64,000 nt of DNA from Spiroplasma endosymbiont of Panorpa germanica (GTDB taxonomy: Bacteria > Bacillota_I > Bacilli_A > Mycoplasmatales > Mycoplasmataceae): contig NZ_OZ026461.1 of NCBI RefSeq assembly GCF_964019765.1, positions 186,001 through 250,000 of the forward strand, in the 5' to 3' direction. The position numbers and the translations under genes are program-made. The notes beneath the pieces were generated by a model. The model was not told the DNA's origin. It worked only from the letters and a program-made list of their open reading frames with translations, and ran no database searches. This document shows positions 31,451 through 60,866 of this stretch, piece after piece; the stretch's first letter is position 1, and the number at the start of each line of letters is the position of its first letter.

Positions 31451-31747
31451 ATGCCAAGAAAAGATATTCATCCAAAGTATTTTGATGCAAAATTCATCTG
31501 TACAACTTGTAGTAAAGAATTTGTTGGAGGTTCAACAAAGGGAGAAGAGATCAGATTAGACACTTGTTCTAATTGTCATCCTTTCTACACTGGTAACCAA
31601 CAATATAGCAATGCTGCTGGACGTATTGAGAGATTTAACACAAAATTTGTGAAGAAAGAAGAAACTGCTAAAAAAATTGCAATGGATTCAGAAGCACAAA
31701 AAGCACAAAACGCTAAGACAAAAAAAGCTACAAAACCTGAAGCTTAG
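31451..31747 (+). CDS. rpmE: 50S ribosomal protein L31 (bL31)
   Basis: This 98-aa protein begins MPRKDIHPKYFDAKFICTTC. Cys17, Cys20, Cys39 and Cys42 form two CxxC pairs, so this is the zinc-binding C+ form. The core is followed by NAAGRIERFNTKF, a standard bL31 ending, and then an extra Lys/Ala-rich tail of about 30 residues. AAGGAGTGT precedes the ATG. It is monocistronic with its own terminator. Confidence 0.96.
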   Translation: MPRKDIHPKYFDAKFICTTCSKEFVGGSTKGEEIRLDTCSNCHPFYTGNQQYSNAAGRIERFNTKFVKKEETAKKIAMDSEAQKAQNAKTKKATKPEA

Positions 31748-31822: not shown

Positions 31823-33682
31823 ATGAGTATTAAATTTGAAAATGTTAAAGTAACAACAAAAAAACAAAAACAATGAAATATTGATTTCAATGCCCAATCG
31901 GGAAAGGTTACTAGCTTTCTTTGTGAGGAAAGAATTGTTAGAACAGAGTTTAAAAAGATAATGAAGGGCTTAGGCCATGTAAGTTCAGGACGCACTTTGA
32001 TAAATAATAATGACATGATTAACTACAAGTTAAATCAAAATCAAATCGCTGATTTAACAAAAGATAGTTATATTGAAAGGATTGTCCCACCGAGATTAAG
32101 TCTATTTATTTCGCTTCTATTTAATCGAGATTTTATCAGAGATGGTAAAACCAAAATCATTAAGGCTCGCTATGAATACTTATCATACAAGACTTCAAAA
32201 AATAATCAAAGTGATTTACAAATGCGACAAGAGATTCAAAGAATTATTCATATTTTTGTTGAAAATTCAATCAGGGTCGAAAAAGAACTTTTAGATATTT
32301 TTTTCAAGCAGATTACAGAATTTAACAATTCAAGAGCTGATAGCAAGATTAACGGTGTCAGTGGTAATCTAGCGATTTTACTAAAACGATTCAATCTATT
32401 AAAAGAAATTAATGCAAATAAGGAATTACTTTTGACGTTCATGCAATCTCTTTGAGATAAGGTTTATGCTTTTATAGAACTGAGATATTCTTGTGATTGC
32501 GAATATAATAGTGGTAGAATAAAAGCGAAAATCTCAAGGAAATTAAGATTTTACGAGCACGAATGAATTGTTAAGGAACAGTTGAAATTAATTGATTTGG
32601 ATGTTAGTCAGTTAAAGTCTTCAATCCAACACAATAAAATTGAAATAAAGAATCTAGCTAGAAAAATTAACAAGATATTAAATGGTTACAAAAAATTAGA
32701 TAGTCAAGTTGGCTTAAATTTAATTTCTGAACTTAAAATTTGAAATAATCTTTCAGCAGATCAAAGATTTGAATTTAGACGCAAACAAGAAAACCTATTC
32801 TTCAAGATCCTTTTAGATGAATCAAACATTATCAAAGGTAAAATAGTTGAAATAGTTCACAGGTATCACGAACTAGTTTTGGAAGGCAAAACCGAACAAG
32901 GAGAAAAGAAAAATTTCAGATCTATTTGCAAAATTAAAAGATCACAAATTCCAACCCTTTACTCTTTGTCGCATTCTTGAACACAAGATATTTTAAATAA
33001 ACTTGAAATTAAGTTTGATTGATTTATAAGTTCTTTCAAAGTAAGTTCGTTAGCCCAAATTTATTTACAAATAATCAGAGCGATTCATTTAAAAAAGAAA
33101 AACATTATTATCGACAACAAATTTCATATGCTAACAAAAAACGATGCAAATTCGTTGATAAACACAATCAGAAGAATAAATGCTTTCTTCCCCAAGGTCT
33201 CTATTATTATTATGGAAAGCAATTTGAAAAACCTTCCAAATCTTAACGAACCTTTTTATTCAATTAACAATAGTGATTTAGAATACGTTTCGTTGAATAA
33301 TGAGTTTTCAAAAAACAACAGCCCTTATCTGAAGGAATTTAATTACAAAAACTTCACCACTAATATTCAGTTAGAAAAAAACTTGTTAAAAATATTAGAT
33401 CAAAGTTTGAAATTGCCTGATAAAAAATCAACAATTGATTCAAAAGTGGCGATTATTAATCCCTTCGCCATAGAAGTTTTAAATGAAAAAAATGCAAAAA
33501 ATTCTATGCAATTTGCTGCCAAAATAATTAGTGATTCCAATTTTGTGGACCCCAGCCTTTATTTGGCGGAGATAAATCCAAATGTATCATTGTACTTCTA
33601 TGAAAATCAAAATATTAACGAGAACAAAGCTGTAAAAATTGCTATCAGTCAAGAGGCTATTTTTATACCCGAAGGGAATTAA
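31823..33682 (+). CDS. Degenerate ABC-type ATPase-like protein (motifs lost)
   Basis: This 619-aa protein is read through five or more TGA-Trp. The first ~110 residues follow the order of an ABC NBD: strand IKFENVKV, then WNIDFNAQSGKVTSFLCEE where a P-loop should be, then KIMKGLGHVSSGRTLINNND (like GL..p.sG.i..ng.d) and VPPRLSLFISLLF (like the P-L-T-V block). A helical insertion of about 270 residues follows. Then SLAQIYLQIIRAI occupies the LSGGQ...RA position and KKKNIIIDNKFHML the Walker B position, with VSIIIMES in place of the H-loop. Walker A Gly/Lys, the signature Gly pair and the catalytic Glu are all missing, so ATP hydrolysis is unlikely. The frame is intact over 1.86 kb, so it is maintained. 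nrnA starts 5 bp after its stop. Confidence 0.62.
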
Positions 33683-33687
33683 AATAA

Positions 33688-34632
33688 ATGAGAGAAAAAT
33701 ACCTAAAATTAGAAAACAAAATTAAAGAATTTGATACAATAATTATTGCAAAACATGTTAATCCAGACTTTGATGCAATTGGTAGTGCTTTTGGACTAAA
33801 ATTTATTATTGAAGATAATTTTAAAGACAAAAAAGTATTTGTTGTTGGTTCTAAAATTGATGAAGGAAAATACGAAAATCCTCAATTAACTGAAGCGGTA
33901 ATTAAAAAGTCAATTTTAATTACTTGTGATACTGCAAACAAGGAAAGAGTTGATTTTGAATTTATTAATGAAGCAAAGGAGATTTTCAAAATTGATCACC
34001 ATGTTGATGGGGATGATTTTGGACATTGCGAACTTGTTGATTCTTCAGCAATTGCCTGTTGTCAAATGATTGCTATTTGATCAAAAGAAATGAATCTGAA
34101 AATATCAAAAGAGGCTGCAAGTCATCTATACAAAGGGTTAATTACAGATTCAAACCGATTCTTGTATAAAAATACAAATGCTCAAACATTTGAAGCAGCT
34201 CAATTTTTAATCAGCACAGGCATTGATTTTGTTGGAATTTATGATAGCTTATATATCAGAAGCTTGGAAGTGCAAAAATGGATTAATAAATGTTTTTCAA
34301 AAGCTGAATTTATCAATGGTGTTGCTCACATAAAAATATTTAAAAAAGAATATGAAGATTTGAGTTTAACATTAGAGGAAGTCAAATCAAGTTTGGGAAG
34401 CATTTGTGGAATTAAAGAAATCAAGATTTCAATTTTAGCTATTGAAGTTGAGGACCAAATTAAGATCTCTCTTAGAAGCTCAAATTATTCAGTAAATCAA
34501 ATTGCTAATAAATTTGGGGGTGGAGGTCACAGACTAGCGGCAGCTTGTAAAATAGCTTCTTGAGATGATTTCTCACAAGTTTTAGAAGCAGCTCAAATTT
34601 TAATTAAAAGCGAGGAAAAAAATGTTAACTAA
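33688..34632 (+). CDS. nrnA: DHH/DHHA1 phosphoesterase (NrnA-like nanoRNase/pAp phosphatase)
   Basis: This 314-aa protein has IIAKHVNPDFDAIGSAFGLK (motif with the N-x-D-x-D-x-x-G metal ligands), LITCDTAN, the DHH motif in FKIDHHVDGDDF, and the DHHA1 substrate motif GGGGHRLAAA near the C-terminus. NrnA-type enzymes degrade 2-5 nt RNA and dephosphorylate pAp. Its end overlaps tdk by 11 nt. Confidence 0.9.
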
Positions 34633-41374: not shown

Positions 41375-44300
41375 ATGAAAAACTCACCTATAAAAACTTA
41401 CACCAAAAATTTAATAAAAGAAGCTAATCAAGTAAATTTAGAAAAAGTAAGTTTAAAAGATATAAAGTGGCCTGTTAATGAGCCTTGAAATATAAATAAC
41501 TCAAGATATCAAAAACTATATATAAGTTGAATGGATAAAGTTGAATTCCTTCATATCTTAAACAACAAAAATATTTCAAAAATAAAAATTCAAAATTTAA
41601 AAGTTAACCAACTAACAAGAATGCAAAATGTTCATAATGATATGGCTTATGCTGTGAACAAAATTGCTAAATCTTTAAAGTTGGCTGACTCTTTTTTAAT
41701 TGCCTATGTTGATTATGTAAATAGCGTTTTCTCTGTAGGTAATGAAATGATCGCGACAACAGAAACTTACGTAAATCGACGTATTTCTTTTGAAGATATT
41801 CAAGGTCCAGTTCATGAACCTGCTAAAATACTATGTAATAAATATCAAAAAGTTTATATAGATTGATTAGAACTAATTAATCAGATCAAAAAAATAAATA
41901 ATTTTAATATTACTATGATTCGTCAAGGTAAATGAGACATCATGAAAATTAGACGTGAATCAGCACTTTATAATCAAAAAGTTGATAAAGTAAATCAAAT
42001 TGCTAAATATTTACAGTTGGCTGAAAATTTTGTAGTTGCCAAAGTGGACTATCTAAATCCAGACTACATTAAGAAGGCTCAAATTGATAAAACAATTATT
42101 TCATCAAAAGATGAAATAAGATTTAGAGAAATTGTTGGCCCAATTTATGATCCTTCAAGAGTAAATAATAGTAAATACCAAAGACTTTACTCATACTGAT
42201 TAGAAGAAATTAATAACTTGAAAATTATTCACAACCGTAATATTGATTTAATTAGTGATGGGATGATTTCTGAAAGAAAAATTGAGAAATTGCAAAATGA
42301 ATACAATTATTTGGTGAGAGATGTAAATGATTTGTTCGAAGATTTAAAGTTAGCTGAACGTTATCGTGTCGCTAGAGTGAACTACTTTATTAACGTCTAC
42401 GAGAAAAAATATTATCAAGAAGATGCTGGCGAAATTACTTACAACGAAATGAGAATTGAAGAATCAGGCGTACCATTCCTAACAATTGATAAGCCTTTGG
42501 AATTAGATTTATCAGAAAAAACTCATGTTGAGAGAATGGAAGCTGAAGAAATAAAATATAAAAAAGTTGTAAAAGATATCCAAGATACTCAAAAGGTTTT
42601 GGATGATTTTGTAAACTTTGAGGAAGTTAATGAGGAATTAATAATCCCTGAACAAACAAAAGAAGAATTTATTTTAACTGAAAAAGTTGTTGAGGAAGAT
42701 GATACTGATTACACAATCACAGATGAAAATTTTGATATAACTTTACAAAGCATCACTGAAGCTGTTGATGAAGAAGAATTAAAAGACCGAGAAGATGTTA
42801 CGGCAACCTTCATCAAAGAACATGCACTTTTTGATTGAAATGGAAGACCGGTTTACAATGAGCAAAAACAACAATTAATTGCAAACCCTGAAATTTTGAA
42901 ATTGGATATCACAAATGTTTATGATGAAAATTTCAGACCACTATTTAGCAATGATAAAGAATTGCCTTACGGATATTCTTTATTTGATTGATTGGGAGAT
43001 CAAGTTTATGATGAACTTGGTAATTTTATAGTTGAAGAAGTGAAAATCAATTTTGATGCCAAAAAACCAAAATACAAAAAAGATGATACTCAATTTATAA
43101 AATTTATTCCTCAACCTAAAGATCCAAAAGGAACTAAACTTTATGATTGACACGGGAATCCGGTTTTTGACAAACAAGGAAAACAACTTGAAACAGATGG
43201 CGAAAATGCTCAGATCTTAGATACAGAAATTTTTGATGTTAATGGAAATAAATTTACTTTAGAAAAAAACAAATTGCCATACACAAAGGCGTTGTTCAAT
43301 AAAAATGGATTTAAGTCTCTTGATGTTTTACAAGACAGTGATGCAAAAGAGTCTAAAGGTGTTCCCGCCAAAGAATACTACGCTAAGATAAATAAACCAC
43401 TTCCTTTAAATTCAACTGAGTTAGAAAAAATTGAAGAAAACAAAGAAGTTAATTTACCAGATAATGATGAACAACTAATTGTTGTTAAAAAACCTTCATC
43501 TAATAATGTAGCGCTATTATTTGACAGAAATAAAAAACTTGTTTTTAGTCCCAACAAAGAACCATTAGAACTTAATTCAGATCTTGGTGCAGTGGACTAC
43601 TCGATTATTTTAAATAGCGCTGGGAAACCTCTTGCTAGCTCAACAAAGTCTCCGATTGTCTTATTTGATAGCCAAGGAAACGTTGTCTTTGATAAAGATG
43701 GTTTTTTAGTTGAACAAGAATTAACAGTTCCGAGAGAATTGAAAAACAAAATTAGTTTCAAAACTAAACCAGTAAAAGAAAAAAGTACATTGTTATTTGA
43801 TATAAATAGCAAACCAGTTTTTGACAAAAACAAGAAGCAACTTACAGTTGAATCTGTAAAAGATAAAGTTGATTTTAAAAATGTTTTTGATAACAAGGGG
43901 AAAAGCGTACTAAAAAACAAAGAAAACCAAATTTATGGATTGGCACTTTTTGCTGCGGACAAAGAACAAGTCTACACAAAAGATGGTCAACTGATTTACA
44001 AAGAATTTGTAGAAGTTAATAATTTTGAAAAACCGTTAGAAAATTTAGTTGAAAATGATATCTCTAAAAAAGATGATGATTTTATTTTAATCTTTGATAA
44101 AAATAACGAACCACTTTTTGACGCCTCAGGAAATCAATTAAATACAGGAATGGATTTTTCAGAGTTTTATCCAAGCAAGATTTTTACAAAACATAAAGAA
44201 CCTGCCTTTCATGATAAAAAAAATATCGATTTATATGACGCCTCAGGAAATCCTTTAAATGAAGTTAAAGAAAAAATTGGAGAGCAACCTTTGACTTGCA

Positions 44301-47300
44301 GCTTACCTCCTGATTATCAAGAAAAATTAAATTCAGATAGACAAGAGCAATATCCTAGTGTAGGAACTCTGATGTTTGATAAAAAAGGTAACCCTTTATT
44401 TTTTGAAAACAAAGAACATGCATTCATTGATGAAGAAAATTTTGATATTAAAGAAAAAGTTATTTTAAACGAAAAGGGACAACCATTATTTAATACTAAA
44501 AAATTAGACAAAGTTGATTTTGCTGTATTTGATTCAGCTAAAAATGAAATCATAAATAAAGATGGAAAATTAAATAAAATTAAAAACAAATCACTTGAGG
44601 AATCATCTCAAATATTTGACATAGATGGAAATCAATTATTTAATAAAGATAAGCAACCTTTGCATGTAGACAACTCTAATTTAAAAGAGATTTTATCTGG
44701 TCAATTATATGATAAAAAAGGGAAACCATATAAATTAAAAGAAAATCAAAGAGCAATCTTTGACATAGATGGAAATCAATTAACAAATAAACAAGGTGCG
44801 CCGCTTATTGAAAAGTCTTTGGATTCTAAAATTGCTTCAGATGATAAAATTCTAGTTAAATTTGAAGAACCAATTGCTCCAGCAGGGACTCAGTTATTTT
44901 CAAAAAAAGGGGAACAACTATTTAACAGTGAGGGACAATTATTTGTAACCGATGGTAAACTAAATCCAATTTCTGATAAATTATTTAATGAACATGGAGA
45001 TTTAGTAATTGATCCAACTAACAAGTTACAGGATGCTACTTTGTTTGATAAAAACAATAACAAAGTCTATAACGAAAATGGAGATCTTATTACAGAAGAT
45101 AAATTTTTAGAGGTAAGTTCAGATAATTTAGCTAAAAAAGTTTTAGATAATGGTGATACAGTTGATGTAATTAAGAGACCAATAGTTAAAATGAATGAAA
45201 ATTTATTCTTAACTGATGGAACAGAATTATTTGATGAAAACCAAAATCCAATCACTTTAAATTCAGTTAATCAAAAAGCACCTGAAAGAATTTTCTCAAA
45301 AAATGGCAGCGAAATTAAATACCCAGACAACAACAAAACTATAATTGATAGTAATGGATTAGTAGCTTTTGATAAAAAAGGTAACTTAAAATTCAATGAA
45401 ATCCCATTTGAAAAAGTGGAAAGTAATAAAAATGATGTAGCTTTTGATATCGAAAAAACAAATGAAAATCTTTTTGAAGAAAAACCAAATCAGACAGTTG
45501 AAAATCAAAAATTATTTTTATTAGATGGAACAGAATTATTTGATGAAAACCAAAACCCCATTACTTTAAATTCAGTTAATCAAAAAGCACCTGAAAGAAT
45601 TTTCTCAAAAAATGGTAGCGAAATTAAATACCCAGATAATAACAAAACATTAGTTGACGATTCTGGAATAGTAGCTTTTGATAAAAAAGGTAACCTAAAA
45701 TTAAGTCAAAATTATTTTGATGAAACTTATGGTTTAAAAGATAACAAAAATTCTAAACAAGATGGAAATGAATCGGGTGAAATTAAAAACCAGGAACAAC
45801 TAGAAGTGGTTGAAAAATTAATTAAGAAACCAATGGCCCAAGAAGGCGAACAATTATTTAATAAAAAAGGAAAACCCGTTTACAACAAGGACGGAGAAAA
45901 AATTACTTTCGATGCTATTAATGAAAAATTTGATGGGGAAATCTTTGATAAAAATGGTAAATCAATTTCAGATAAAAAAGATTCACAGTCAGATAAAACT
46001 CTTTACAATAAAAAAGGAACTAAAGTCTTTGATGAAAACGGAGATGCCATTTTTAACACTGAAGTCATTTCTATAAATCCTGATAAAATAAAAATCAAAG
46101 AGCTGGAAGATGGCAATACAATTGAAATACTTTCAGAACCATTAATTAAAAATGAAGAATTATTATTTACACAAAATGGAGAACCTGTATTTGATGAATA
46201 TCATCAACAGTTAAGAACTTCTCAAGACGAAAATGATCAATCTCCTGAAACTGTTTTTGACAAAAAAGGGAGAGATATATCACATAAATTGGATAATATC
46301 CGTGTATTGTTTGATAAAAATGGTAACCCAGCTTATGACCGAAGTGGTGATCGTTTAAAAGATGAAAAAATTTTAAATGACTTAGCGGAAAACAAAACTA
46401 AATCAGATAATCTATCACAAAATATCAAACCACAAAAAGAGACAGAAGAAGTTTTAGTGACAATACAAGAACCATTGGCACCAAAAAACACGCCCCTATT
46501 TACTAAAGATAAAAAACCTTTATTCAATAGAGAGGGTGAACAAATTTTAACTGACGGAAGAATGGAAAAATTTAGTCAGCCTGTTTACAGCGAAAATGGT
46601 GAAATTGTATTTGATGCAGCGGAAGAAAACATCGATAAAACTTTATATGATGAATTTGGTAAGGAAATATTTGATAAAAATGGATCACCGATTTTATTAT
46701 CTAAAAATATCAATGTAAAACCTGAGGAAGTAAAAACTAAAAAAACATCAGATGGCAGCGAAGTGAAATATATTCAAAAACCTTTAGTAAAAAATGATGA
46801 GCAACTTTATTTAACTAACAAAGAACCTGTTTACAAATCTGATGGTACACCTTTATTATTCAAAGATGATTTATCATCGGCACCTGAAGAATTATATTCA
46901 CAAGATGGTAAATTATTAAATAATCTAATTGATTCAAAAACTTTAGTAAATAAAGATGGAATAATAGCGTTTAACCGAAACGGTGATTTAAATATTATTG
47001 AAACTCCAGTTGTGGCATTAGAGAAATCAATATCAAATGAAAATGTAAGTACTGATTTGGAATTAAAAGAATCAGATTACAAAAATTCATATTCACAAGA
47101 TTCTTATGACAACAATCCAAATCAAGATATCACTGAAGGTCAACAAATATTTTTAGCTAACAATCAACCAGTTTATAACCGAAACGGTGATATTTTAAAA
47201 ACCACAAAAGACATGGAACATTTTTCAGATGAGATGTTTGACGAAAAAGGAAATTCAATTCCCGAAGCACCCAATCAATCACTTTACATAAGTGATGGAA

Positions 47301-50300
47301 CTAAAGTTTTAGACAGAAGAGAAAATGCTAAAAATATTAGTCCCGAAAAATCTTTTGTCGAAAAACCATCAGAAGATAAAAATTTAGAAGAAAATGTTAT
47401 AGCTGAAATAAAAGTCACTTCAGTAAGCCCAGGAGCTCAGTTATATACAAAAGATAAACGCCCAGTCTTTAATTCTAAGGGTAAACAGTTGCTTAACAAT
47501 GGTAAACTTTCAAAAATTAATGAGACAGTTTTTGACGAAAAAGGAAAAATAATTTTTGATCCTAAAGACGAAAATTCTGATAAATCACTTTTTGATAAAG
47601 ATGGAAATCAAGCTTACAAGGAAAATGGTAAACCATTACTTAAAAACAAAGAGGTTAAGATTAAATCTGGCGATATCAAAAAAACGGTTCTCCCTTCTGG
47701 AGAAAAAATTAAATTTATTGAGAAACCTGTAGTTGATTTCAATGAACCGCTATATCTAGATGACAATACTCCAGTATTTAAATTTGATGGTAGTCCACTT
47801 ATATTCAATGATGTTTTAAGTGAATCCCCAGAAAATTTCTATTCTTCTAACGGAATAAAAATCAAAAATGATGACGAAACTAAATCTTTATTTGATAAAA
47901 ATGGTTTAGAGGTTTTTGATAAAAATGGTAAACTTAAAACCGTTAAAGAACCAATCGTCAAAATATTAGATAGTGAACATGAAAACAATAAATTTGAAAA
48001 TAAAGAACTTGAAAACAATGAAATTGAAAACAATGAACTTGAAAACAATGAACTTGAAAACAATGAACTTGAAGATGAGCAAGAAGAAAAAAATGAGCGA
48101 GAAATTGAATCAGTTAAAGTGGAAAAAATAATAAATAGTCCAGTAGCGCCTATTGGTACTTTGTTATTCTCAAAAGATAATACTCCAATTTACGAATTAA
48201 GTGGAAAAAGATTAAAATTATCAGAAAATAAAAATCCTTGAGAAGAGGGAATTTATAATTCAAATCTTCAACCAATTTTAGAATTAGATAACAAAAATCT
48301 TTATGATGCTGAGGGTAATGAAATTTTCAACAGCGATGGTAATTTGATTTTAAAACATAAAAAAGTTCTTGTTGACAAAAAAGATATCGAAACTAAAGTT
48401 CTACCTAACGGAGAAAAAGTTGAAACAATTAAGTCTGCAAATGTGGACAAGGGACAGTTTTTATTCTTGAAAGATAACACACAAGTTTACGATAAAAATG
48501 GAAGTCCAATATTATCAACTGGTACTGATGAACCTTTAAGAGGTGATGTTTTTGATAGAAGTGGTAAAAATCTTTTCAAAGATCCAAAGTATTACGAAAA
48601 CGGAAAATCACTTTTCACAAAAGAAGGCGTACCAGTTTATGATATGAGTGGTTCAGCTGTTACAAATGAAAGTCAGATTATTGACGAGGCTGATATAAAT
48701 AACAATTTGGAAGCTAAAACTGCCAAAATTCCAGATTTAAAATCTGAAAAAGTGAAAGCTAAAATAAAGACTCCGATTGCAAAAGTTGGAACCCCATTAT
48801 TTACAAAAGATCAAGAGCCAGTATTTACTAGCGAAGGTCAACCATTGAAATCTGATGGACAGGTTTCAAGAATAACCTCACCAGTTTTTGATAAATCAGG
48901 TAATTTGTTATTTGCATTAGATGATCAAGAAAAAGACAAATCATTGTTTGATAAAGAGGGTCGTAAATTATATTCTGAAACAGGAAAACCTGTTTTAGAA
49001 ACAGTTGAGTTAGAAATTAACCCTGAAGAAGTTAAAACTAAAAAATTACCTTCAGGAGATACTGTCAACTATATTGAAAAACCTCTTGTTGAAACAGGGC
49101 AACAGTTGTTCTTGAAAGATGGAACCCCAGTTTATAAAGCTGATAAAACCCCATTAACAATGGAAGATTTTATGACCAAAACACCAGAAAAAATATTTGA
49201 TATTCAAAGTCGTGAAATTGATCAAAAAGACAACAAAGCTTTATTTGATAAAAACCAACAAATGGGATTTGACGATAAGGGTAATCGTAAAACAATTAAG
49301 AGCCCAATTGTAAAACTTTTAGATGAAACTAAAAGGGAAACAGATACACCAAAAGCAAAAAATGATTCCAAAGAAGATAAAAATATTTTAAAAACTCATG
49401 AAAATGAAGAAATTATTTTATTGGAACCAACCGTTGAAGAAGGAACTTTATTATTTGATAAAAAAGGTCGTCCGGTATTTGATGTCAATGGAAATCAATT
49501 AACTCAAGGAAAAGTTAACGAAGTTGTTGCTAAAGAAATCTTTGATGTGAATGGTGAAATTCTAAATAAAGATGCTCAGGAAAAAAATATCAAACCTTAC
49601 TTGTTTGATGAATCAGGTAAAAAAGCTACTGAAATCGATGGAACACCAATTGTCAAAGAGGTTTTAATTGATTTAAGTAATCCAATTCAAAAAGACAAGG
49701 AAATTGAAATTATTATCGTACCTATTGCTAAAATAGGAACTAAACTTTACACAGAAAATGGTTCACCAGTATTTTATTCTTCAGGCCAACCCGTAGTTGT
49801 AAATTATGAAATAGAAAAATATGATTTCTCAGATATTTACGACAATGATGGAGAGTTAGTAGCTGAACAAAATGAAAATCAAGAACTTTTTGATTTTGAA
49901 GGAACCCACGTTATTGAAGATGGAGAGCTTATCAAAGTTAAAAGAGCTGTTAAGAAAAACAAAGAAATCAAAAAAGACGATAAAGCAAATCGAAAAGCTA
50001 AAGTTAAAGAAAATATAGATAAGTTTAAAAATTCTCAAAAACATGCAAAGAAAGATTTAGACAATGTTTTTGATGAGGCAAATAGTAGACTTGAAAAAAT
50101 CAAAGAAGAATTAAAAGAGATTACTGATAATACTCAAGCTAAACGTCAACCTAAATCAGTCTTTGATAAATTAACAGAGGAATATGAGGATGACTATGAT
50201 ACTGAATATGACTTATTAGAATCAAGAAGAAAACCTAATAAATCCAAATCAATAAATGATGATTTAGAGCCTTTACCAAGTATGCAACAAAGCTTTGTTC

Positions 50301-50710
50301 CAAAAGAAAACAATTTCTTTAATAAGATTGAGGATAGAATGAATTCAATTGAACAAATGCTAGCAATTTTAACAAATCAAGATAAAACTATGGATTCAAG
50401 CAAAATTAGAATATTAAAAGATGATATCGACAGAATCTATGCAGATATAAATAATATTAGTTCTAGCGTTCCAAGTTTTACTTATAATAATCAGTTTAAT
50501 CGCAAACCTCATGATTTTGATATTTGCGGCTGCAAAAATGATTGTGGATCTTCAAAAAGAAGACACCATGTTTATAATTCTGGAAACAACTTTTCACAAA
50601 GAGGTAATGATTTTAAAGTAGCTAACTTTAGTCACCACCATAATTGTCACCACAAAAAAAATGATGGTCATCAAATTTGTGAACACTGTGGAAACAACTT
50701 TAATTATTAA
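41375..50710 (+). CDS. Giant repetitive intracellular protein (3111 aa)
   Basis: This is one open frame of 9336 nt when TGA is Trp. No signal peptide or membrane helix is seen. Residues 1-~480: three copies of a ~120-residue unit ending in the pattern GP(I/V)(Y/H)(D/E)P...NKYQ(K/R)(V/L)Y..WLE.IN and containing LKLAE..(V/I)A.VDY. Residues ~484-2850: over 60 short units of the type LFDKNGNPVFDKNG, each with a Gly turn, grouped in supermodules that begin P(I/L/V)AP.GT.LF at nt ~44870, 45829, 46470, 47418, 48137, 48770, 49425 and 49721. Residues ~2855-2925: basic coiled region. C-terminus (from ~3048): six Cys and many His (CGCKNDC, HHHNCHH, CEHC), a likely metal site. Overall acidic and almost Cys-free elsewhere. 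It may be a cytoskeletal or scaffold protein (inference). AAAGGG lies about 12 nt upstream. Confidence 0.85.
45202..45393 (+). repeat. Direct repeat in giant gene, copy 1
   Basis: About 190 nt nearly identical to 45511-45702, offset by 309 nt (103 codons). Encodes DGTELFDENQNPITLNSV and following residues. In-frame internal duplication. Confidence 0.88.
45511..45702 (+). repeat. Direct repeat in giant gene, copy 2
   Basis: Second copy of the 309-nt-period duplication; differences from copy 1 are mostly third-position changes (for example AATCCAATC versus AACCCCATT), plus divergence near the 3' end. Confidence 0.88.
47981..48073 (+). repeat. 15-bp tandem repeat in giant gene
   Basis: About six copies of GAACTTGAAAACAAT, the first ones imperfect and the last three exact, encode (E-L-E-N-N)n. 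This is a candidate variable-number tandem repeat; the 15-bp unit keeps the frame. Confidence 0.9.
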
Positions 50711-53067: not shown

Positions 53068-53964
53068 TTAATTTGATTTTTGTTTCGGAAAACCTCAAAT
53101 AGCGGAAAAATCAGTGGTATAAACAGTGTTTATAAAGTCCATCCTACCTGAAACCTTAGCAAAAACTCAATCATCATTTTCATTTTCTAGAACTTCTACG
53201 TTTAATTTATCCCCCCATACCTTAAATTTATAAAATTCGTAAATAGGACCGTGATGACTACTCATAAAAGTCCCGTATGGATTACCCATATTATTAAGAT
53301 CTTTTCGAATTCTTTCCTCAGCACCCCTTATATTGTCTTTTTCCAAATCTTCTGCCACTCCTTTAAAACTATCAGTAGTTTCCACAAAGCCTTTAACTCA
53401 CTTAAAACGTATATTTTTATCGTTATTAATACCACCAAATCAGTATTTTAAAAATCTTTCCATGACTTTTTCGTTATCGCTTTTTTCCTTAATGGTATTT
53501 GTTTGTTTAAAATTAAACTTTAAACCATCTAGTTCAGTAATTTTAGTTCCATCAGCATCTTTAACTATTATGGGCTCGTAATTAAAACTATGATTTTCTC
53601 CGCTTTTAATATTGCCTCTCAAACCTGATTCTCTAGTCTTACTAAGATCAATATCGTAAAATTTTGCGTCTGAAAGATTTATGGTTTTTGACATTTCCTC
53701 TAGGATGGTCTCTATGAATAATGAGTTTAAAATATCTTTTGATGGTCTTTCCGGATTAAAATCCCAATCCGGATTAGTTGTTGGTTCATCGATAAAAATA
53801 AAATCTCCTTCATAAGTAAATTCTTTATTTTCAGCAAAGAATTCTTCCACATTTGCGATGTTTAATTCTAATTTTTCAACTTCGGGACTCCCGCACGATA
53901 CTACACTAATTGTTGAGGTAGTTAATAGCGATAATGATCCCAATATACTTAGTAATTTTTTCAT
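53068..53964 (-). CDS. Lipoprotein, unknown function
   Basis: This 298-aa protein has a classic mollicute lipoprotein signal: MKKLLSILGSLSLLTTSTIS then VVSC, with Cys24 as lipidation site. The mature part is hydrophilic and acidic. Blocks FTYEGDFIFID and GLKFNFKQTN are shared in pattern with the plus-strand lipoprotein at 55201 (IKYEGPYIFAK and LYFTFKQTN), so they are paralogues. AAGGAGAG lies 6 nt before ATG and a TATATT-rich promoter region is shared with the divergent gene. Several Trp are TGA. It is anchored on the outer face of the membrane. Confidence 0.82.
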
Positions 53965-54039
53965 TTTGTCTCTCCTTTTAAATAATATATAATATCACCT
54001 TTGCATATTATATACTATAAATGAAAGATAATAAATATT

Positions 54040-54894
54040 GTGAAATCAAGAAATAACAATAAACAAAAAGTGTTAACAATAGGAATGTTGCTATTTTTAT
54101 TAACCAGTTCAGCACTTTTAGTACCTCAAAAAAGTGGTTATTTTTACAATTTTGAAGGGCGAAGTTTTTCAAATCAATCACAAGTTGTTGATTATGCTAT
54201 GACCAAGGCTAATAAGAAAATTGAACAAGAAGACCACTACTACTATAAATACAATAATAAAATTTACTCTTTAGAAGAAAAAAATCGTGCCCTAGAAGAC
54301 ATGATTAATGATGCTAAAATAAAAAAAGAGCTTACATATAGAAATCCTTCAGATCATATTATTTCAAATTCGGGGGAACTTTCTGCTCAAGTTAGACAAG
54401 CTTACAACGACAAGTTAGTTAACGTTTATAAGGGTAAAAACGGTAATTCTTATATAGATTTAGATGAAGCAGTTCAATCATATTTTGATTATGACGAAGT
54501 TTTATTAACTGAAAACCTAAATAAAGATTCAAGTGTTCCAATTGAATTCTATAATGAAAGTGAAATGATTCAGTATTTGGAAAATAACAAAAGAGAATCT
54601 TCAGAACAAGGAGAGAAAAGTGACTGCTACTTAGTTGGAGGACTTTGTCAAGATGAAAGTTCAGTTAAAAAATGATTGAAAAGTACCTCTGATTACAAAT
54701 ACCGTTACAAGGATTATGAATGAAGCAACTTTTTTCCTGCAGAAATAGAAAAAATTGATTTAAACACAAAAGACAAAGTTTATATAGATAATATTTTCAA
54801 GCATGATGCTAGTAAAAATGCTTATTGATTAGGTATTGATAATAAAAACAAGACATCTTTTCTTAATGAAATTTTATTTTCAGGATTAGACTAG
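54040..54894 (+). CDS. Putative secreted or membrane-anchored protein, unknown
   Basis: This 284-aa protein is read from GTG. Residues about 12-30 (VLTIGMLLFLLTSSALLV) form a signal/anchor helix after a basic N-terminus. There is no lipobox Cys. The rest is hydrophilic, Tyr/Lys/Asn-rich, with a Cys pair (CYLVGGLC) that could form a disulfide outside the cell. No Shine-Dalgarno is visible; a TATACT at 54011 would give a short leader. An ATG at 54021 is in another frame and reads only 11 codons. No family is recognised. The start is uncertain. Confidence 0.6.
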
Positions 54895-55200
54895 TATTTT
54901 TTTTCGAAGATTGATCACGCCACTTAGACCACCTCTTAGTGACTGCCAACATCATATGTAAATATAAGTCCTTGATTTTTAAATCTAACTCTTTCATTCT
55001 TAATTGTTAAGCTTTTTGGATTATTTAGAAGGGGGCATTTCAATAATAAAGTAATCGTTATTATATTTTATAGTTAGTTTTTTTACTCAAATTAAACTTA
55101 TTTTTAATTAAAATATCTTCATTTCATAATTTTAATTAATTCCAAAAAATATAATTTGGTTATGATACAATATAAATGTTATTAAAAAGGAGAAACATCC
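54895..55200. other. Intergenic region, ~300 bp
   Basis: No gene seen. It contains an imperfect hairpin near 54927-54950 (CACTTAG / CTTAGTG) and, at the right end, an extended -10 (TGATACAAT, 55163-55171) for the lipoprotein at 55201. Confidence 0.45.
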
Positions 55201-56136
55201 ATGAGGAAATTATTATCAATTTTAGCTGCCCTAACTCTAGTGGGAACTTCAGCTAGTAGTGTAGTTGCTTGCGACATGTTTGGAGGCGGTGGCGAAACTA
55301 CCGAACCTGAACCTGAAGAAGAAGTGGAAGAAGTGGAAGTTGACGAACCAATTGGAAGAGAATTAAACATCAAAAGTTTTGAAAGATTTTTGAGAGAAAC
55401 TGAAATAAAATATGAGGGACCATATATCTTTGCTAAAAACCAGGATGAATGACTAATAAACAATAGTACTGCAAAAAGAATAATAGATCATAAATTAGAA
55501 GTTTATATTCTTGAATTATTAAATGAGCAATTTGATTTTGACTTTGACGATCGATATGAGATTGCAGTTAATATTTCCGGAGAAGATAAAAATCAAATCA
55601 CTAAACAAAAACCATTTGAAGTAAATAAAGAATATAGATTTAAATATTATGCTAGCATTCGTTCAGCACAATCAACTAATTGACAAGATGCTGTAGATAT
55701 ATCAGATTTATATTTTACTTTCAAACAGACCAATGAACCAGAAAGAAATAATATCACAAATGAAATCCTAAATGATTCTATTAGTACTTATAAAGGTATG
55801 AACATTAATGAAGAAAACTATTTTAATTGGGATAATAAAACAAATGATAAATATTATAGAAACATAAGAGAATTAATAAAAAAAGATTTCTCTGAACAAT
55901 TACGTTCAGAATTGATTTTCATAGTTGAAAATGAATTTGATGAAAATACTAAGGCTAGTCATTTTGAGTCACTACCTTATCATGAATTAAAATCTTCAAA
56001 TGAAGTCACTGAAATTGAAGTTGTTGATAAACCTATGAAACACGGAGAAGTGATAATTAAAATATATAACACCTCAACCTTTTTCAACTTAGAGGATAAA
56101 CCCACAATTTCTTGATCAACCTATTGAATAATTTAA
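55201..56136 (+). CDS. Lipoprotein, unknown function
   Basis: This 311-aa protein has signal MRKLLSILAALTLVGTSASS then VVAC, with Cys at 25. A short Gly run (MFGGGG) and an acidic linker of Glu/Val/Pro follow before the folded part, a typical surface-display arrangement. The blocks KYEGPYIFAK and LYFTFKQTN are shared with the minus-strand lipoprotein at 53068. AAAAGGAGAAAC precedes ATG. A decayed copy of this gene lies at 57121-57456. Function is unknown; membrane-anchored on the outside. Confidence 0.82.
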
Positions 56137-56160
56137 AATTATCATAATTAGCAAAATTTG

Positions 56161-56200
56161 AATAATCCTTAAACTCTAAATAGTTTAAGGATTATTTTTA
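56161..56200 (+). terminator. Terminator after lipoprotein (copy A of a repeated module)
   Basis: An AATAATCCTTAAACT/AGTTTAAGGATTATT stem followed by TTTATTTAATAG. Nearly the same module, including downstream bases, recurs at 57457. Confidence 0.88.
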
Positions 56201-56313
56201 TTTAATAGTAGTTCGGTCTTTTTATAAAACAAATAAGCTATTAATGACTCCTAAAGATAATAACTGGTCTAATGACACTAAATATTTTTCAAGGGGTAAC
56301 GTTTTTATTTCTC

Positions 56314-56347
56314 AAAATTATAAAAAACACGGAAATTTTATAATTTT
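56314..56347. repeat. 12-bp inverted repeat upstream of a lipoprotein promoter
   Basis: AAAATTATAAAA and TTTTATAATTTT are perfect complements separated by 10 bp; they lie 6 bp upstream of the -35 at 56354. A possible operator. Confidence 0.5.
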
Positions 56348-56353
56348 AAGATG

Positions 56354-56382
56354 TTGCTTTTAAGTGTTATTTTTTGTATAAT
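56354..56382 (+). promoter_or_regulatory. Promoter of the frameshifted lipoprotein gene
   Basis: TTGCTT, 17 bp, TATAAT. It is followed by AAAGGAG and the ATG at 56417. Confidence 0.75.
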
Positions 56383-56416
56383 GAAAATGGGATTAGCCCC
56401 AATAAAAGGAGTCAAT

Positions 56417-56964
56417 ATGAAAAAATAATATCTCTATTAGCTGCTTTCGGTTTAACAACTTCAGCATCAATCAGCGCTGTTGCTTGTAATACAGATTCAA
56501 AAAATCCTGGTGAACCCGGTCTACCAGATTCAGTTGAAGATGAAGCTTACTTAGAATATAAAATACCAGAAACTTTAGAAGAAATTGAGAAACTTTTATC
56601 AGAATACAACACCAAAATAAATAATGTTGTAAAGGAGTTGTGTTTAGAAGTTTATGGTCAAGAATCATTTCCAAAGGATGCAACTGCAGAACAAAACAAA
56701 ACTTTCGTAAATCACGAAAATGCTCAGTTGTATTTAGCGAATCAAATTATTAAATATCACATGGAAGGTTTAAAGTTTATAATTGAGGGCAACAAGACTC
56801 AAGCTTCAAATACCGTTATTGCTATGAAAAGTTTGCCAGGAAAATTAGGATTAAATAATCCAGATGATGAAGATCAATTAATCTTATTTGTCTTTTCTGA
56901 ATCAAACAAAGTTAATTTAACCAAATTAACAAACGACTTAGAAAATAGAATATCTAAAATATAG
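56417..56964 (+). pseudogene. Lipoprotein gene, out of frame in a poly-A run after the start
   Basis: From the ATG (AAAGGAG 5 nt upstream) the sequence reads ATG, six A, then TAA, giving only MKK. With one more A it would read MKKIISLLAAFGLTTSAS and then ISAVAC, a complete lipoprotein signal with Cys24, followed by an intact 158-codon hydrophilic body to TAG at 56962. The body is rich in Glu/Asn/Lys and unlike the 55201 family. The promoter, SD and terminator are all intact, which argues for a switchable (phase-off) gene or a very recent loss rather than an old pseudogene. A sequencing error in the A-run cannot be excluded. Confidence 0.72.
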
Positions 56965-56996
56965 ATACTAAAAACTAATAAGCGAATATATTGTTT

Positions 56997-57024
56997 AAAA
57001 AAGGCTTTCAACAGCCTTTTTTTA
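56997..57024 (+). terminator. Intrinsic terminator after frameshifted lipoprotein
   Basis: An AAAAGGCT/AGCCTTTT stem with loop TTCAAC, then T-tract. Confidence 0.88.
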
Positions 57025-57120
57025 TATGTTTCTTTGAGCACTTATTTTAAAATAGCTATGGTATTTTCATATGTTTATGCGATTTTGTTATTATATCTAA
57101 TAATTATCACAGGTGGGGTT

Positions 57121-57456
57121 AATTAGGAGAAAATTATTATCAATATTAACTGCTTTTTGAGTTAGCTATATCATTTGTATTTAATGTAGCTAAGTGATGA
57201 TTGTTTGAGGGTAGTGGTTAGATATTTGGATTAAAAGAAGTGAGAAAAATAGAAGAACAATTTGAAAAGAATTTAGTATTTGAGACTAGGAAATATTTTT
57301 GAGAGAAACTTAAATAAAGTTAGAGAAACCTAATGCCCTTACTAAAAAATGATGAATGAAAAATAAACTACATAAGGTTTCAGATTACAGGACAAACCTA
57401 CAACTTTTTTACCCACTTATTTGATATTTTAAAATTATTTCAAACAAGAAGTTTTT
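57121..57456 (+). pseudogene. Decayed copy of the 55201 lipoprotein
   Basis: The start matches AAATTATTATCAATTTTAGC of the intact gene with ATG changed to ATT. Then TGTAGCTAAGTGATGATTGT mirrors the VVAC/DMFGG region with stops. TTTTTGAGAGAAACTTAAAT mirrors TTTTTGAGAGAAACTGAAAT (FLRET-I). The sequence then jumps to a stretch resembling the intact gene's last 60 bases, and ends in the same terminator. About 600 bp of the middle is missing and several stops interrupt all frames. A remnant of tandem lipoprotein duplication. Confidence 0.75.
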
Positions 57457-57500
57457 AATAACCCTTAAACTATTTAGATTTTAAGGGTTATTTTTATTTA
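57457..57500 (+). terminator. Terminator (copy B of the repeated module)
   Basis: An AATAACCCTTAAA/TTTAAGGGTTATT stem then TTTTATTTAATAG, homologous to the terminator at 56161 including flanking bases. Confidence 0.85.
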
Positions 57501-57537
57501 ATAGAGTCGCTGACTTTGTAAAACTAATAAGTTGTTT

Positions 57538-57568
57538 AATATATTAACACTTAAAGTGTTAATATATT
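57538..57568. promoter_or_regulatory. Perfect 15-bp inverted repeat, probable operator or leader hairpin
   Basis: The arm AATATATTAACACTT is repeated in perfect inverse orientation around a single A. A possible TTGTAA (57515) and TAATAT (-10) place it over the -10/start site of the 57611 operon. A second small hairpin (TGGAG/CTCCA, 57571-57590) follows just before the ribosome-binding site. Confidence 0.6.
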
Positions 57569-57610
57569 TATGGAGCTAGAATTAACTCCAGAAAAGAGGA
57601 ATTTAAAGTT

Positions 57611-58543
57611 ATGAACATTTGAGCAATTGCTGCAGCAGCTTCGCTGAGTGTAGGCACTCCTGTAAATTTTTCAAATAACTTATTAATTACAACCAGAGAT
57701 AACAATAGTATTTTTATTGATAAAATGGATTTATCAAAATATCAAAATACTTTGCTAGATAATAAAGATATTATAGTAAATTTAGATGAGGACTATTCAC
57801 TTAAAGGAGTCACAAATCAATTTAAAGACAAAATTTTATTTGAGATTGAAGATCTTTTAATTTCCAAAGGTAACTATGAAGCATCGGGCGCTTTTATTGA
57901 CCACAAAAATGATTTTGAGTTTAAAGTACTTTATGAAGAGAATTTCAAAAATCAATATTCAAAAAAAATGATTCTTCAAATAGAGGCAAAACAAACAAAT
58001 AAATACTTTTTTGAAGGGACAAGTCTAGAATTTTGATTTAATTCTAATTTTATAAATGAATCAAAAATTTCATCTCATGGATATTTGGATTTCCACTATA
58101 AACTTAAAGCAAATTGGTCTACAAAATATCAATATGATTTATCAGGATCCAAAAAAGATATCATTTATTATGAGGATTATGCTTTGGATAAAACAGACTT
58201 TCTTCGAAAATATAAAAGTGTGGCTGTATACTATAATGCATATGCAATTAACTATAAAAATGAAAGTGTTTTAAAGTATCCAAATGAGGTCAACAGAGTT
58301 CAAGGTGTTAGAAACCCAGCAAGTACTAATCCTGATGACAGCAGTTTTTTAATTGCAGATTCGGAATTAAAATCCTGAGGACTTCAAAGTGGTTATAAAA
58401 TCGTTATGAGCATTCCCATTATTGTTGGAAATACATATATTTCCATAGACACAAGAGCTCGTGGTTATGTAAAAGGGTATGGGGCGCCGTGAAAAGAAAT
58501 AGAAGTAGGAATTTATGTTAATTATTTTAGATTACAAACTTAG
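57611..58543 (+). CDS. Putative exported protein linked to ABC transporter, unknown
   Basis: This 310-aa protein is read through TGA-Trp. The N-terminus MNIWAIAAAASLSVGTP looks like a short, uncharged signal-like helix without a lipobox. The rest is beta-rich and Tyr/Asn-rich, with patches such as GYLDFHYKLKANWSTKYQYD, and ends YVNYFRLQT. GAGG lies about 11 nt upstream. It is followed after 9 bp by an ABC ATPase and then a permease, so it may be the exported cargo or a partner of that transporter (inference). No family is recognised. Confidence 0.65.
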
Positions 58544-58552
58544 GTTAATAAC

Positions 58553-59305
58553 ATGCTAGAGATAAAAAATATAACAAAATTATTTAAAAACGGAGCTGGT
58601 ATCAAAAATGTTTCGTTTCAAATCCCAGAAAAATCAATTTGTGGTTTTGTTGGTGATAATGGAATGGGTAAAACAACTACTATTAGATGTATTTTTCAAG
58701 AGTATCAAACTTCCCAGGGAGAAGTTACCTATAAAGGCAAAACTTTAAAGAGTCGTAATAATTTAATTAAAATCGGATTGTTTCCCGACACAAATTCAAT
58801 CCCCTTGGACTACCAGCTAAAAGATTATGTTACCTATTTAGCGTTGCTATACAAGATTCCTCCCAAAGTTGCGATAGAAAAGCTAAGTGAATTAACAAAA
58901 ATATTTAATCTTGAAGGTTATGAAAATAAAAAATTAAAAACTTTATCAGCGGGTATGCTAAAACGCGCCATGTTATTGGCTATTATGATATTGGACTTAG
59001 AAGTTATTATTTTAGATGAGCCTACAGCTAATTTAGATGTTAATAGCCGACAAGAGTTTATGGAAATTTTGTTATTTCTAAACAGTCAAGGGAAAACAAT
59101 CATAATAACAAGTCATATTATTGAAGAGCTACAAGAAATAATCGACTTTTTAGTATTTATTGACAATGGGGAAATCAAATACTCAAAACCAATAGATAAT
59201 AAAAAAGAGTCTATTAAGGAAATCTATAACAAATATCGCTCCCAAAATATTAGTACTAGAGTGGGGGATTTAAAAAAATATGTTAAATCAAGTCAAGAAA
59301 AATAA
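58553..59305 (+). CDS. ABC transporter ATP-binding protein (ABC-2/drug type)
   Basis: This 250-aa single-NBD protein has Walker A GDNGMGKTT (34-42), signature LSAGMLKR, Walker B VIILDEPTANLD and H-loop ITSHIIEEL. It resembles CcmA/NatA-type ATPases of exporters. It overlaps the following permease by 26 nt. AGGT upstream is a weak SD, so coupling to the previous gene is likely. The partner is the permease at 59280. Confidence 0.9.
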   Translation: MLEIKNITKLFKNGAGIKNVSFQIPEKSICGFVGDNGMGKTTTIRCIFQEYQTSQGEVTYKGKTLKSRNNLIKIGLFPDTNSIPLDYQLKDYVTYLALLYKIPPKVAIEKLSELTKIFNLEGYENKKLKTLSAGMLKRAMLLAIMILDLEVIILDEPTANLDVNSRQEFMEILLFLNSQGKTIIITSHIIEELQEIIDFLVFIDNGEIKYSKPIDNKKESIKEIYNKYRSQNISTRVGDLKKYVKSSQEK

Positions 59306-60866
59306 TCAACCCCGCTTAAATAAAATTACTGAAAACTTCCCAGTATTTAGTTTTAATTGAAATTGAATCTGAAAAAGTATTACTTTGTGAATTGTCAATG
59401 CAGTTTTTGGAATCATGATTGTTATTTTTTCAATATTGTTCGCCCTAGGAATGAAACAAAATATGGTTGTCTATAATGGCGTGTACCAGGTGCACCAAAA
59501 CTGAGGACAAAGTTTATGAGCTTTTCAGACCATAAAAACTAGTTTGGTTATTTTATTTATCACGGTTTGAATTGTATTATCAACTTATGAATTATTTGTA
59601 AAACAAAAAAAAGCCCTGATGTTTCAACTAGAAATTAGAACGGGAAATAGGTTATGGATTTCATATTGAAGTCGCTTTCTAATTATCTTTTTAACATTAA
59701 TAATTATTATAACCTTCTTGTTAATTTGTGATTCATTTATTGCCCTTAGTTTTAAAAATTTTGGAAAACCGTTTTTTGAGGCTTTTGGATTGGCAAATTA
59801 TCCGTTCTTCTATCTTTTAGCTATCGTTTTATTTAGTTTTTCATTGTTTTTCAATGCAGTTTTAAATCCCGTTCTTTCAACTCTATTTTTAATGTCGATA
59901 ATGAGCTTTGTATTCATTAACCCATTTGGTTGAGTTCCAATTTTTCAAGGAGTCATGTCTGCAAAAAATGTTTACAGTTTAAATGATAAAATTAGAGGGC
60001 TGAATTTTGAGTTTAGCTTTGCTAAAAACTTTAATGATTATTTTGCAAATAAAACGGAAATTGACTATTTGCAAAAAGACTTAAAAGAAATGGACATTTA
60101 CAACTATTATTGATTCTTTGAACAAGATAATATATTTGAAGCAAACGAAGAAAATATTATGGATCCTTATTTATCTGCTAAGTCTTATGAGACATTATTA
60201 AAATGAAATGATAAAATAAAATCTCCTGATAATAAAATAGCAGATTTTACTAACTTAACAAATCAATTAATTAAATCTGAAGTCGACGAAAATTTGAAAG
60301 ATTTTTTAGAATTTTACAAAATTTGAGGTGAAAAATATTTGACCGCCTCAATTTTTGACGGTACATATATTCATTCAAATACAGCTAGACAAATTTTTGG
60401 ACCTGGTAAATATTTTAGTTTCTTGTTAAATGTCCTTAAAAACAGTATGCAAATTAATAAAAATAACATTTTGAATTTAGATGATTATAACAAAACAATT
60501 AATTTTAACGAAAGTAATAACCACTGAAATCCGATTAATCATTTTGAATGATTAAAACGCGGCAAAATTTACAATACAGAAGACATCTTTTTAAGAGAAC
60601 TTGTCTTTCCTACAATTTATGGAACAAATTGAACTATCGCCTCATTTGATTGAAACATTACTAATCAAACAGAATTTGATAAAATATTGAATAGTCAGGA
60701 CTCATTGAGACAAATCAAAGATACAAGTGAGTATGAATCTGTAATTCAAATAGGGAAAGTTATTAACAACCCTTTATACGAACTATTTTATTCATTATGA
60801 CTTCTAACATCGGCTTTATTCTTTGCACTAGCCTTTTTAATATTTAAAAAATTTTACTTTAACTAA
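59280..60866 (+). CDS. ABC transporter permease with large extracytoplasmic domain
   Basis: This 528-aa protein is read through many TGA-Trp. Helices lie at about residues 30-55, 78-100, 118-145 and 158-200; a soluble domain of about 270 residues (225-500) follows; the last helix is at about 500-524 (LWLLTSALFFALAFLIF). Its ATG lies 26 bases inside the end of the ATPase gene. The soluble domain is hydrophilic, Asn/Asp/Lys-rich and lies between the two membrane halves, presumably outside the cell. With the ATPase it forms an ABC-2-like exporter; the substrate is unknown. Confidence 0.75.

Follow-up and report, generated by a model that had tools for sequence, protein, structure and literature searches.

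A degenerate MalK/UgpC-type ABC protein encoded beside nrnA in Spiroplasma and its relatives: lost ATP motifs and a candidate zinc site in a helical insert

INTRODUCTION

What is left for an ABC-type protein to do once the residues that handle ATP are gone? This question is raised by gene X, an intact frame of 619 codons in a 64,000-nt stretch of DNA from the Spiroplasma endosymbiont of Panorpa germanica; the whole stretch analysed is called the window here. It is Mollicute DNA, forms part of a 1.05-Mb genome and is read with code 4. The frame of gene X is open only with this code, its six TGA codons being read as Trp. Here, we describe the ancestry of the X protein, the parts that have been lost and conserved, and the role that these suggest.

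RESULTS

Gene X is conserved in three families and is under purifying selection

We performed whole-genome searches with the X protein and, later, with a 27-row alignment. Gene X was found in 60/60 genomes sampled from the same family (f1, which we take to include Spiroplasma and Mesoplasma), two of them with a frameshifted copy, as well as in 5/5 f9 genomes and in the f5 genomes sampled. In the rest of the order the matches were short and weak, as with ordinary NBDs. A contig scan with the single X protein gave no match, and the only named match of a second contig scan was Williamsoniiplasma lucivorax. Identity across genera is ∼30%.

The pN/pS ratios of gene X against two congeners are 0.20 and 0.33, near those of the neighbouring nrnA (0.25 and 0.35), synonymous sites being saturated in these comparisons. 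The frame is under purifying selection, as the first-pass annotation had argued. In two f1 genomes of a single genus gene X is broken by a single frameshift, which may reflect a recent loss (the gene being dispensable somewhere) or an assembly error. These frameshifts (2 of ∼70 genomes) and the fast divergence are what would be expected of a decaying gene retained by chance. We consider this very improbable, because the gene is full-length in nearly all genomes of the three families, its pN/pS is well below 1, four of its residues are invariant and, by synteny, it has been retained in a synthetic minimal genome (see below).

X is a MalK/UgpC-type NBD with an OB/TOBE domain

When searched singly, the X protein of the window gave weak Pfam and NCBIfam ABC matches and no match to the Pfam OB domain. 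The f5 and f9 orthologues matched UgpC, GlcV and PotA models (down to 1e-19), and the UgpC and GlcV matches extended through the C-terminus. The X family profile aligned with intact insert-bearing Mollicute UgpC-type NBDs over 593 columns (hhalign, 99.4% probability, E 5.8e-21) and with solved NBDs at E ∼1e-11. An AlphaFold2 model built on the family alignment (pLDDT 86, pTM 0.78) found nearly exclusively MalK-class ATPases as its best PDB matches in Foldseek, with low TM-scores of 0.2–0.37. The OB/TOBE domain has its strands at 512–609 in this model, and the alignment spans the C-terminus. X is a MalK/UgpC-type ABC NBD followed by an OB/TOBE domain, in the order NBD-N, helical insert, NBD-C and OB/TOBE (Table 1). 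Profile E-values and MalK-class fold matches also led us to reject a chance resemblance to NBDs. The NBD fold proposed in the first-pass annotation is borne out by the profiles and, with low TM-scores, by the model; the OB/TOBE domain had not been mentioned there. The NBD plus OB fold is shared with the MalK/CUT1 class (MalK, MsmX, GlcV, CysA, PotA), whose members, unlike X, have no insert, hydrolyse ATP and are encoded with permeases.

Table 1. Coordinates of gene X, its parts and its neighbours in the window
Feature	Position	Strand	Basis
rpmE (L31), usual upstream neighbour of X	31451..31747	+	locus comparison
Gene X, 619-aa pseudo-NBD protein (ATG to stop)	31823..33682	+	code 4 frame, genome searches, orthologue alignment
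N-terminal half, MalK/UgpC-type NBD, residues ∼1–88	31823..32086	+	hhalign vs intact paralogues, E 5.3e-14
Former Walker A: CEERIVRTE where intact paralogues have GPSGCGKST	31922..31948	+	paralogue alignment
Former Q-loop Gln: K80	32060..32062	+	paralogue alignment
Helical insert, residues ∼89–398	32087..33016	+	AlphaFold2 model; homologous insert in active paralogues
D212, invariant 72/72	32456..32458	+	orthologue alignment
C224-x-C226, Cys pair invariant 72/72, candidate metal ligands	32492..32500	+	orthologue alignment
H346-x-Y-H349, H349 invariant 72/72	32858..32869	+	orthologue alignment
C-terminal half of NBD, residues 399–505	33017..33337	+	hhalign; f5/f9 model matches
Former ABC signature: VSSLA for LSGGQ	33041..33055	+	paralogue alignment
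Former Walker B: IIIDN; D431-N432, catalytic Glu absent	33104..33118	+	paralogue alignment
Former H-loop His: S466	33218..33220	+	paralogue alignment
MalK-type OB/TOBE domain, residues 506–619	33338..33679	+	hhalign of C-terminal part, E 2.9e-8
nrnA (DHH oligoribonuclease/pAp phosphatase), 5 nt downstream of X	33688..34632	+	domain match, locus comparison

The ATP-handling motifs are lost throughout the family

Motif positions were read off an alignment of X to intact paralogues. The Walker A, Q-loop Gln, LSGGQ, Walker B Glu and H-loop His, by which a functional ABC ATPase is recognized, are all replaced in the window protein and are kept in none of the 72 distinct orthologues aligned (58 f1, 9 f5 and 5 f9 rows). 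The loss of the Walker A, LSGGQ, Walker B Glu and H-loop, which had been noticed earlier in the window protein, therefore extends to all three families; orthologues with intact motifs were sought and none was found. The pseudo-NBDs are monophyletic (support 100/98), so a single loss of catalysis suffices. The tree, which has long branches, did not separate three placements of the sister clade among the intact NBDs (AU p 0.48, 0.37 and 0.32). Purifying selection on a protein devoid of every ATP motif points to a role independent of nucleotides. We infer from the sequences that X does not bind nucleotides; it may retain some residual binding.

The helical insert is shared with active UgpC-type ATPases

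The insert splits the NBD after the Q-loop and comprises ∼310 aa, ∼265–290 aa more than a plain MalK has there; the first-pass annotation had recognized it and given its length as ∼270 aa. The AlphaFold2 model places its helices at 90–99, 102–124, 129–176, 181–215, 247–292, 294–353, 362–374 and 379–394. An insert of comparable length interrupts, at the identical site, the intact UgpC-type ATPases of related Mollicutes (L087–L093 and L103–L132; PRK11650 UgpC is their best NCBIfam match), which resemble X in domain order, predicted helices and OB/TOBE. The predicted positions of the first three helices in an active paralogue (91–100, 103–126 and 130–177) are within two residues of those of X. 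Alignment of the insert alone with that of active paralogues scored 27.6 over 265 columns, compared to 20.9 for the best of 60 block shuffles. The idea of an insert unique to gene X was hence rejected; this kinship had been overlooked.

The active insert-bearing paralogues differ from X in several respects. They retain the Walker A, LSGGQ (LSWGQ in one), a DEP-type Walker B and THD, are followed directly by a BPD_transp_1 permease gene in the loci checked, have neither CxC nor HxYH, and are absent from the window genome and from most genomes that carry X. Three of the intact UgpC-type ATPases (L087–L089) have an even larger helical insert, the distance from Walker A to LSGGQ being 451–531 aa.

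A helical excursion with a Cys motif also parts the NBD halves of Rad50/SbcC-type zinc-hook ATPases, which gave weak fold matches. Rad50 has long coiled coils, a CxxC apex that bridges two molecules and intact ATP sites. X has short helices, a CxC plus His motif, no ATP motifs and sequence homology to MalK, and a Rad50/SMC relation was rejected.

The only invariant residues form a candidate zinc site in the insert

Across the 72 orthologues, no position other than D212, C224, C226 and H349 is invariant, and these four all lie within the insert; the earlier reading had missed this set. H346 is present in 58/58 f1 rows. The five f9 rows have Tyr at this position and their loop reads C-x-C-H, while the nine f5 rows have Lys or Glu and the loop reads C-x-C-x-C. 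The putative fourth ligand thus swaps by lineage, as a tetrahedral zinc site would show, and as far as sequence can tell the pattern is that of a zinc protein, with four conserved ligands of which one is exchanged. C224, C226 and H349, together with the switching fourth ligand, apparently constitute a zinc site; zinc is the most likely metal. Alternatively, the invariant Cys and His residues could form a disulfide, act in redox chemistry or bind metal in some other role, CxC being a short motif. In the predicted order of helices, the CxC loop (216–246) comes after helix 181–215, and helix 294–353 ends with HxYH; the two might therefore come together at the insert's base.

X is basic and is always encoded next to nrnA

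The X protein of the window has a pI of 9.6 and a net charge of +28, the highest pI among the window proteins compared. All orthologues measured are basic (mean pI 9.4, range 8.2–9.9). The charge of NBD-N is +9.3 per 100 aa in X versus +1.9 in the active paralogues.

The gene order in the window is rpmE, X, nrnA, tdk, prfA, prmC. X immediately precedes nrnA in 56/56 loci examined, mostly with rpmE before the pair and tdk and prfA after it, and in 55 of them the two genes are spaced by −17 to +33 nt. This fixed pairing had gone unnoticed. An outgroup locus from family f8 reads pyrG-fba-rpmE-tdk-prfA, without X or nrnA, which suggests that X and nrnA may have joined the cluster together. One f1 genome has no tdk between nrnA and prfA, with X and nrnA still paired.

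Further along the window lies a 3111-aa protein (41375–50710, + strand) with many diverged LFDKNGNPVFDKNGxxL-type repeats, a Cys/His-rich C-terminus and a match to the Pfam 'Bflower' (4-fold beta flower) family at 1.1e-6. The region 53068–60866 holds a cluster of lipoprotein-like genes and, after it, an intact ABC ATPase (58553–59305) and a 528-aa probable membrane protein.

The neighbourhood bears on two specific roles. In one, a narrower form of the scaffold reading favoured below, X is an accessory to RNA decay or translation that binds RNA or the ribosome and feeds NrnA or tethers it. The position of X-nrnA inside the rpmE-tdk-prfA-prmC cluster, where an outgroup lacks them, the short or overlapping spacing and the basic pI of the orthologues are consistent with it, but nrnA homologues exist without X in other Mollicutes and the fixed order may reflect inheritance frozen by descent rather than functional linkage. 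We regard this role as possible, with the odds clearly against it.

In the other, X supplies the pseudo-ATPase to a heterodimeric ABC transporter. It would sit on a permease pair together with a catalytic NBD of the MalK/PotA type, and one composite ATP site would be dead, a design known from BmrCD-like or TAP-like transporters. X has kept the MalK-class NBD and OB/TOBE folds, heterodimeric ABC proteins often have degenerate ATP sites, and the window genome does contain intact MalK- and PotA-type NBDs without the insert. However, the degenerate half of known heterodimers usually retains its Walker A and binds ATP, whereas X keeps nothing of the ATP site, and its highest conservation falls in the insert and not in the NBD parts. 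A functional ABC transporter is encoded with permeases; among the 56 loci none has a permease gene as an immediate neighbour of X, these places being taken by rpmE and nrnA. An insert-bearing active paralogue is also an improbable catalytic partner, as it is absent from the window genome and many others with X. We consider a transporter half unlikely, and of the two options left by the first-pass annotation, a pseudo-ATPase partner or a nucleotide-independent structural protein, the latter fits better.

X very probably corresponds to the minimal-cell gene MMSYN1_0138

In syn3A, rpmE is locus 0137, an NrnA-like protein is 0139 and the thymidine kinase gene tdk is 0140 (PMC6609329). This order places X, which likewise lies between rpmE and nrnA and upstream of tdk, at MMSYN1_0138. 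By position and published description, MMSYN1_0138 of JCVI-syn3.0/syn3A (Mycoplasma mycoides) is very probably the X orthologue, an identity missed earlier. Antczak et al. (2019) described 0138 of the minimal cell as ABC-like with a non-conserved ATP site (PMC6609329), so that the core point of the first-pass annotation was already known for the probable orthologue. The main text of that paper makes no mention of the invariant Cys/His set, the insert-bearing relatives or the nrnA pairing (PMC6609329). In the literature that we searched, the clade-wide loss, the shared insert, the ligand-exchanging invariant residues and the nrnA pairing of X were not found.

DISCUSSION

Loss of the ATP motifs under selection, the basic charge and the lack of permease neighbours together favour a cytosolic, metal-pinned scaffold over a transporter partner. 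As a whole, we propose, with a probability of roughly 0.6, that X is a nucleotide-independent, metal-pinned scaffold derived from an insert-bearing UgpC-type ATPase. Its ancestor would have been a sugar-transporter ABC ATPase of the insert-bearing MalK/UgpC type. The ability to bind and hydrolyse ATP would have disappeared a single time, early in the clade that unites Spiroplasma, Mesoplasma and the Mycoides group, with the protein then retained as a scaffold. The helical insert would be the working part, with a metal, most likely zinc, held in the window protein by C224, C226, H349 and H346, and with D212 as a ligand or second-shell residue. The NBD and OB parts may form a platform that is rigid and strongly basic.

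As X lies next to nrnA in every locus examined and next to a permease gene in none, a cytosolic partner (NrnA, RNA or the ribosome) is more likely than a transporter. Gene order and basic composition faintly suggest a tentative link to NrnA and RNA turnover. It is somewhat more doubtful that X is a former transporter ATPase rebuilt on a new zinc site as a basic RNA- or ribosome-associated adaptor working with NrnA.

Genes of unknown function leave a main gap in what is understood of the synthetic minimal cell; X is, by synteny, one of them. With the present analysis, the description 'ABC-like, ATP site not conserved' gives way to a picture that can be tested: an ancestor class, a single clade-wide loss, four invariant residues, a switching ligand and a fixed nrnA neighbour. 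X is also a clear-cut example of an ABC ATPase that has apparently become nucleotide-independent while gaining a metal site. If the adaptor role were true, such a protein would count among the conserved core components of both the Spiroplasma-Mycoides clade and the synthetic minimal cell.
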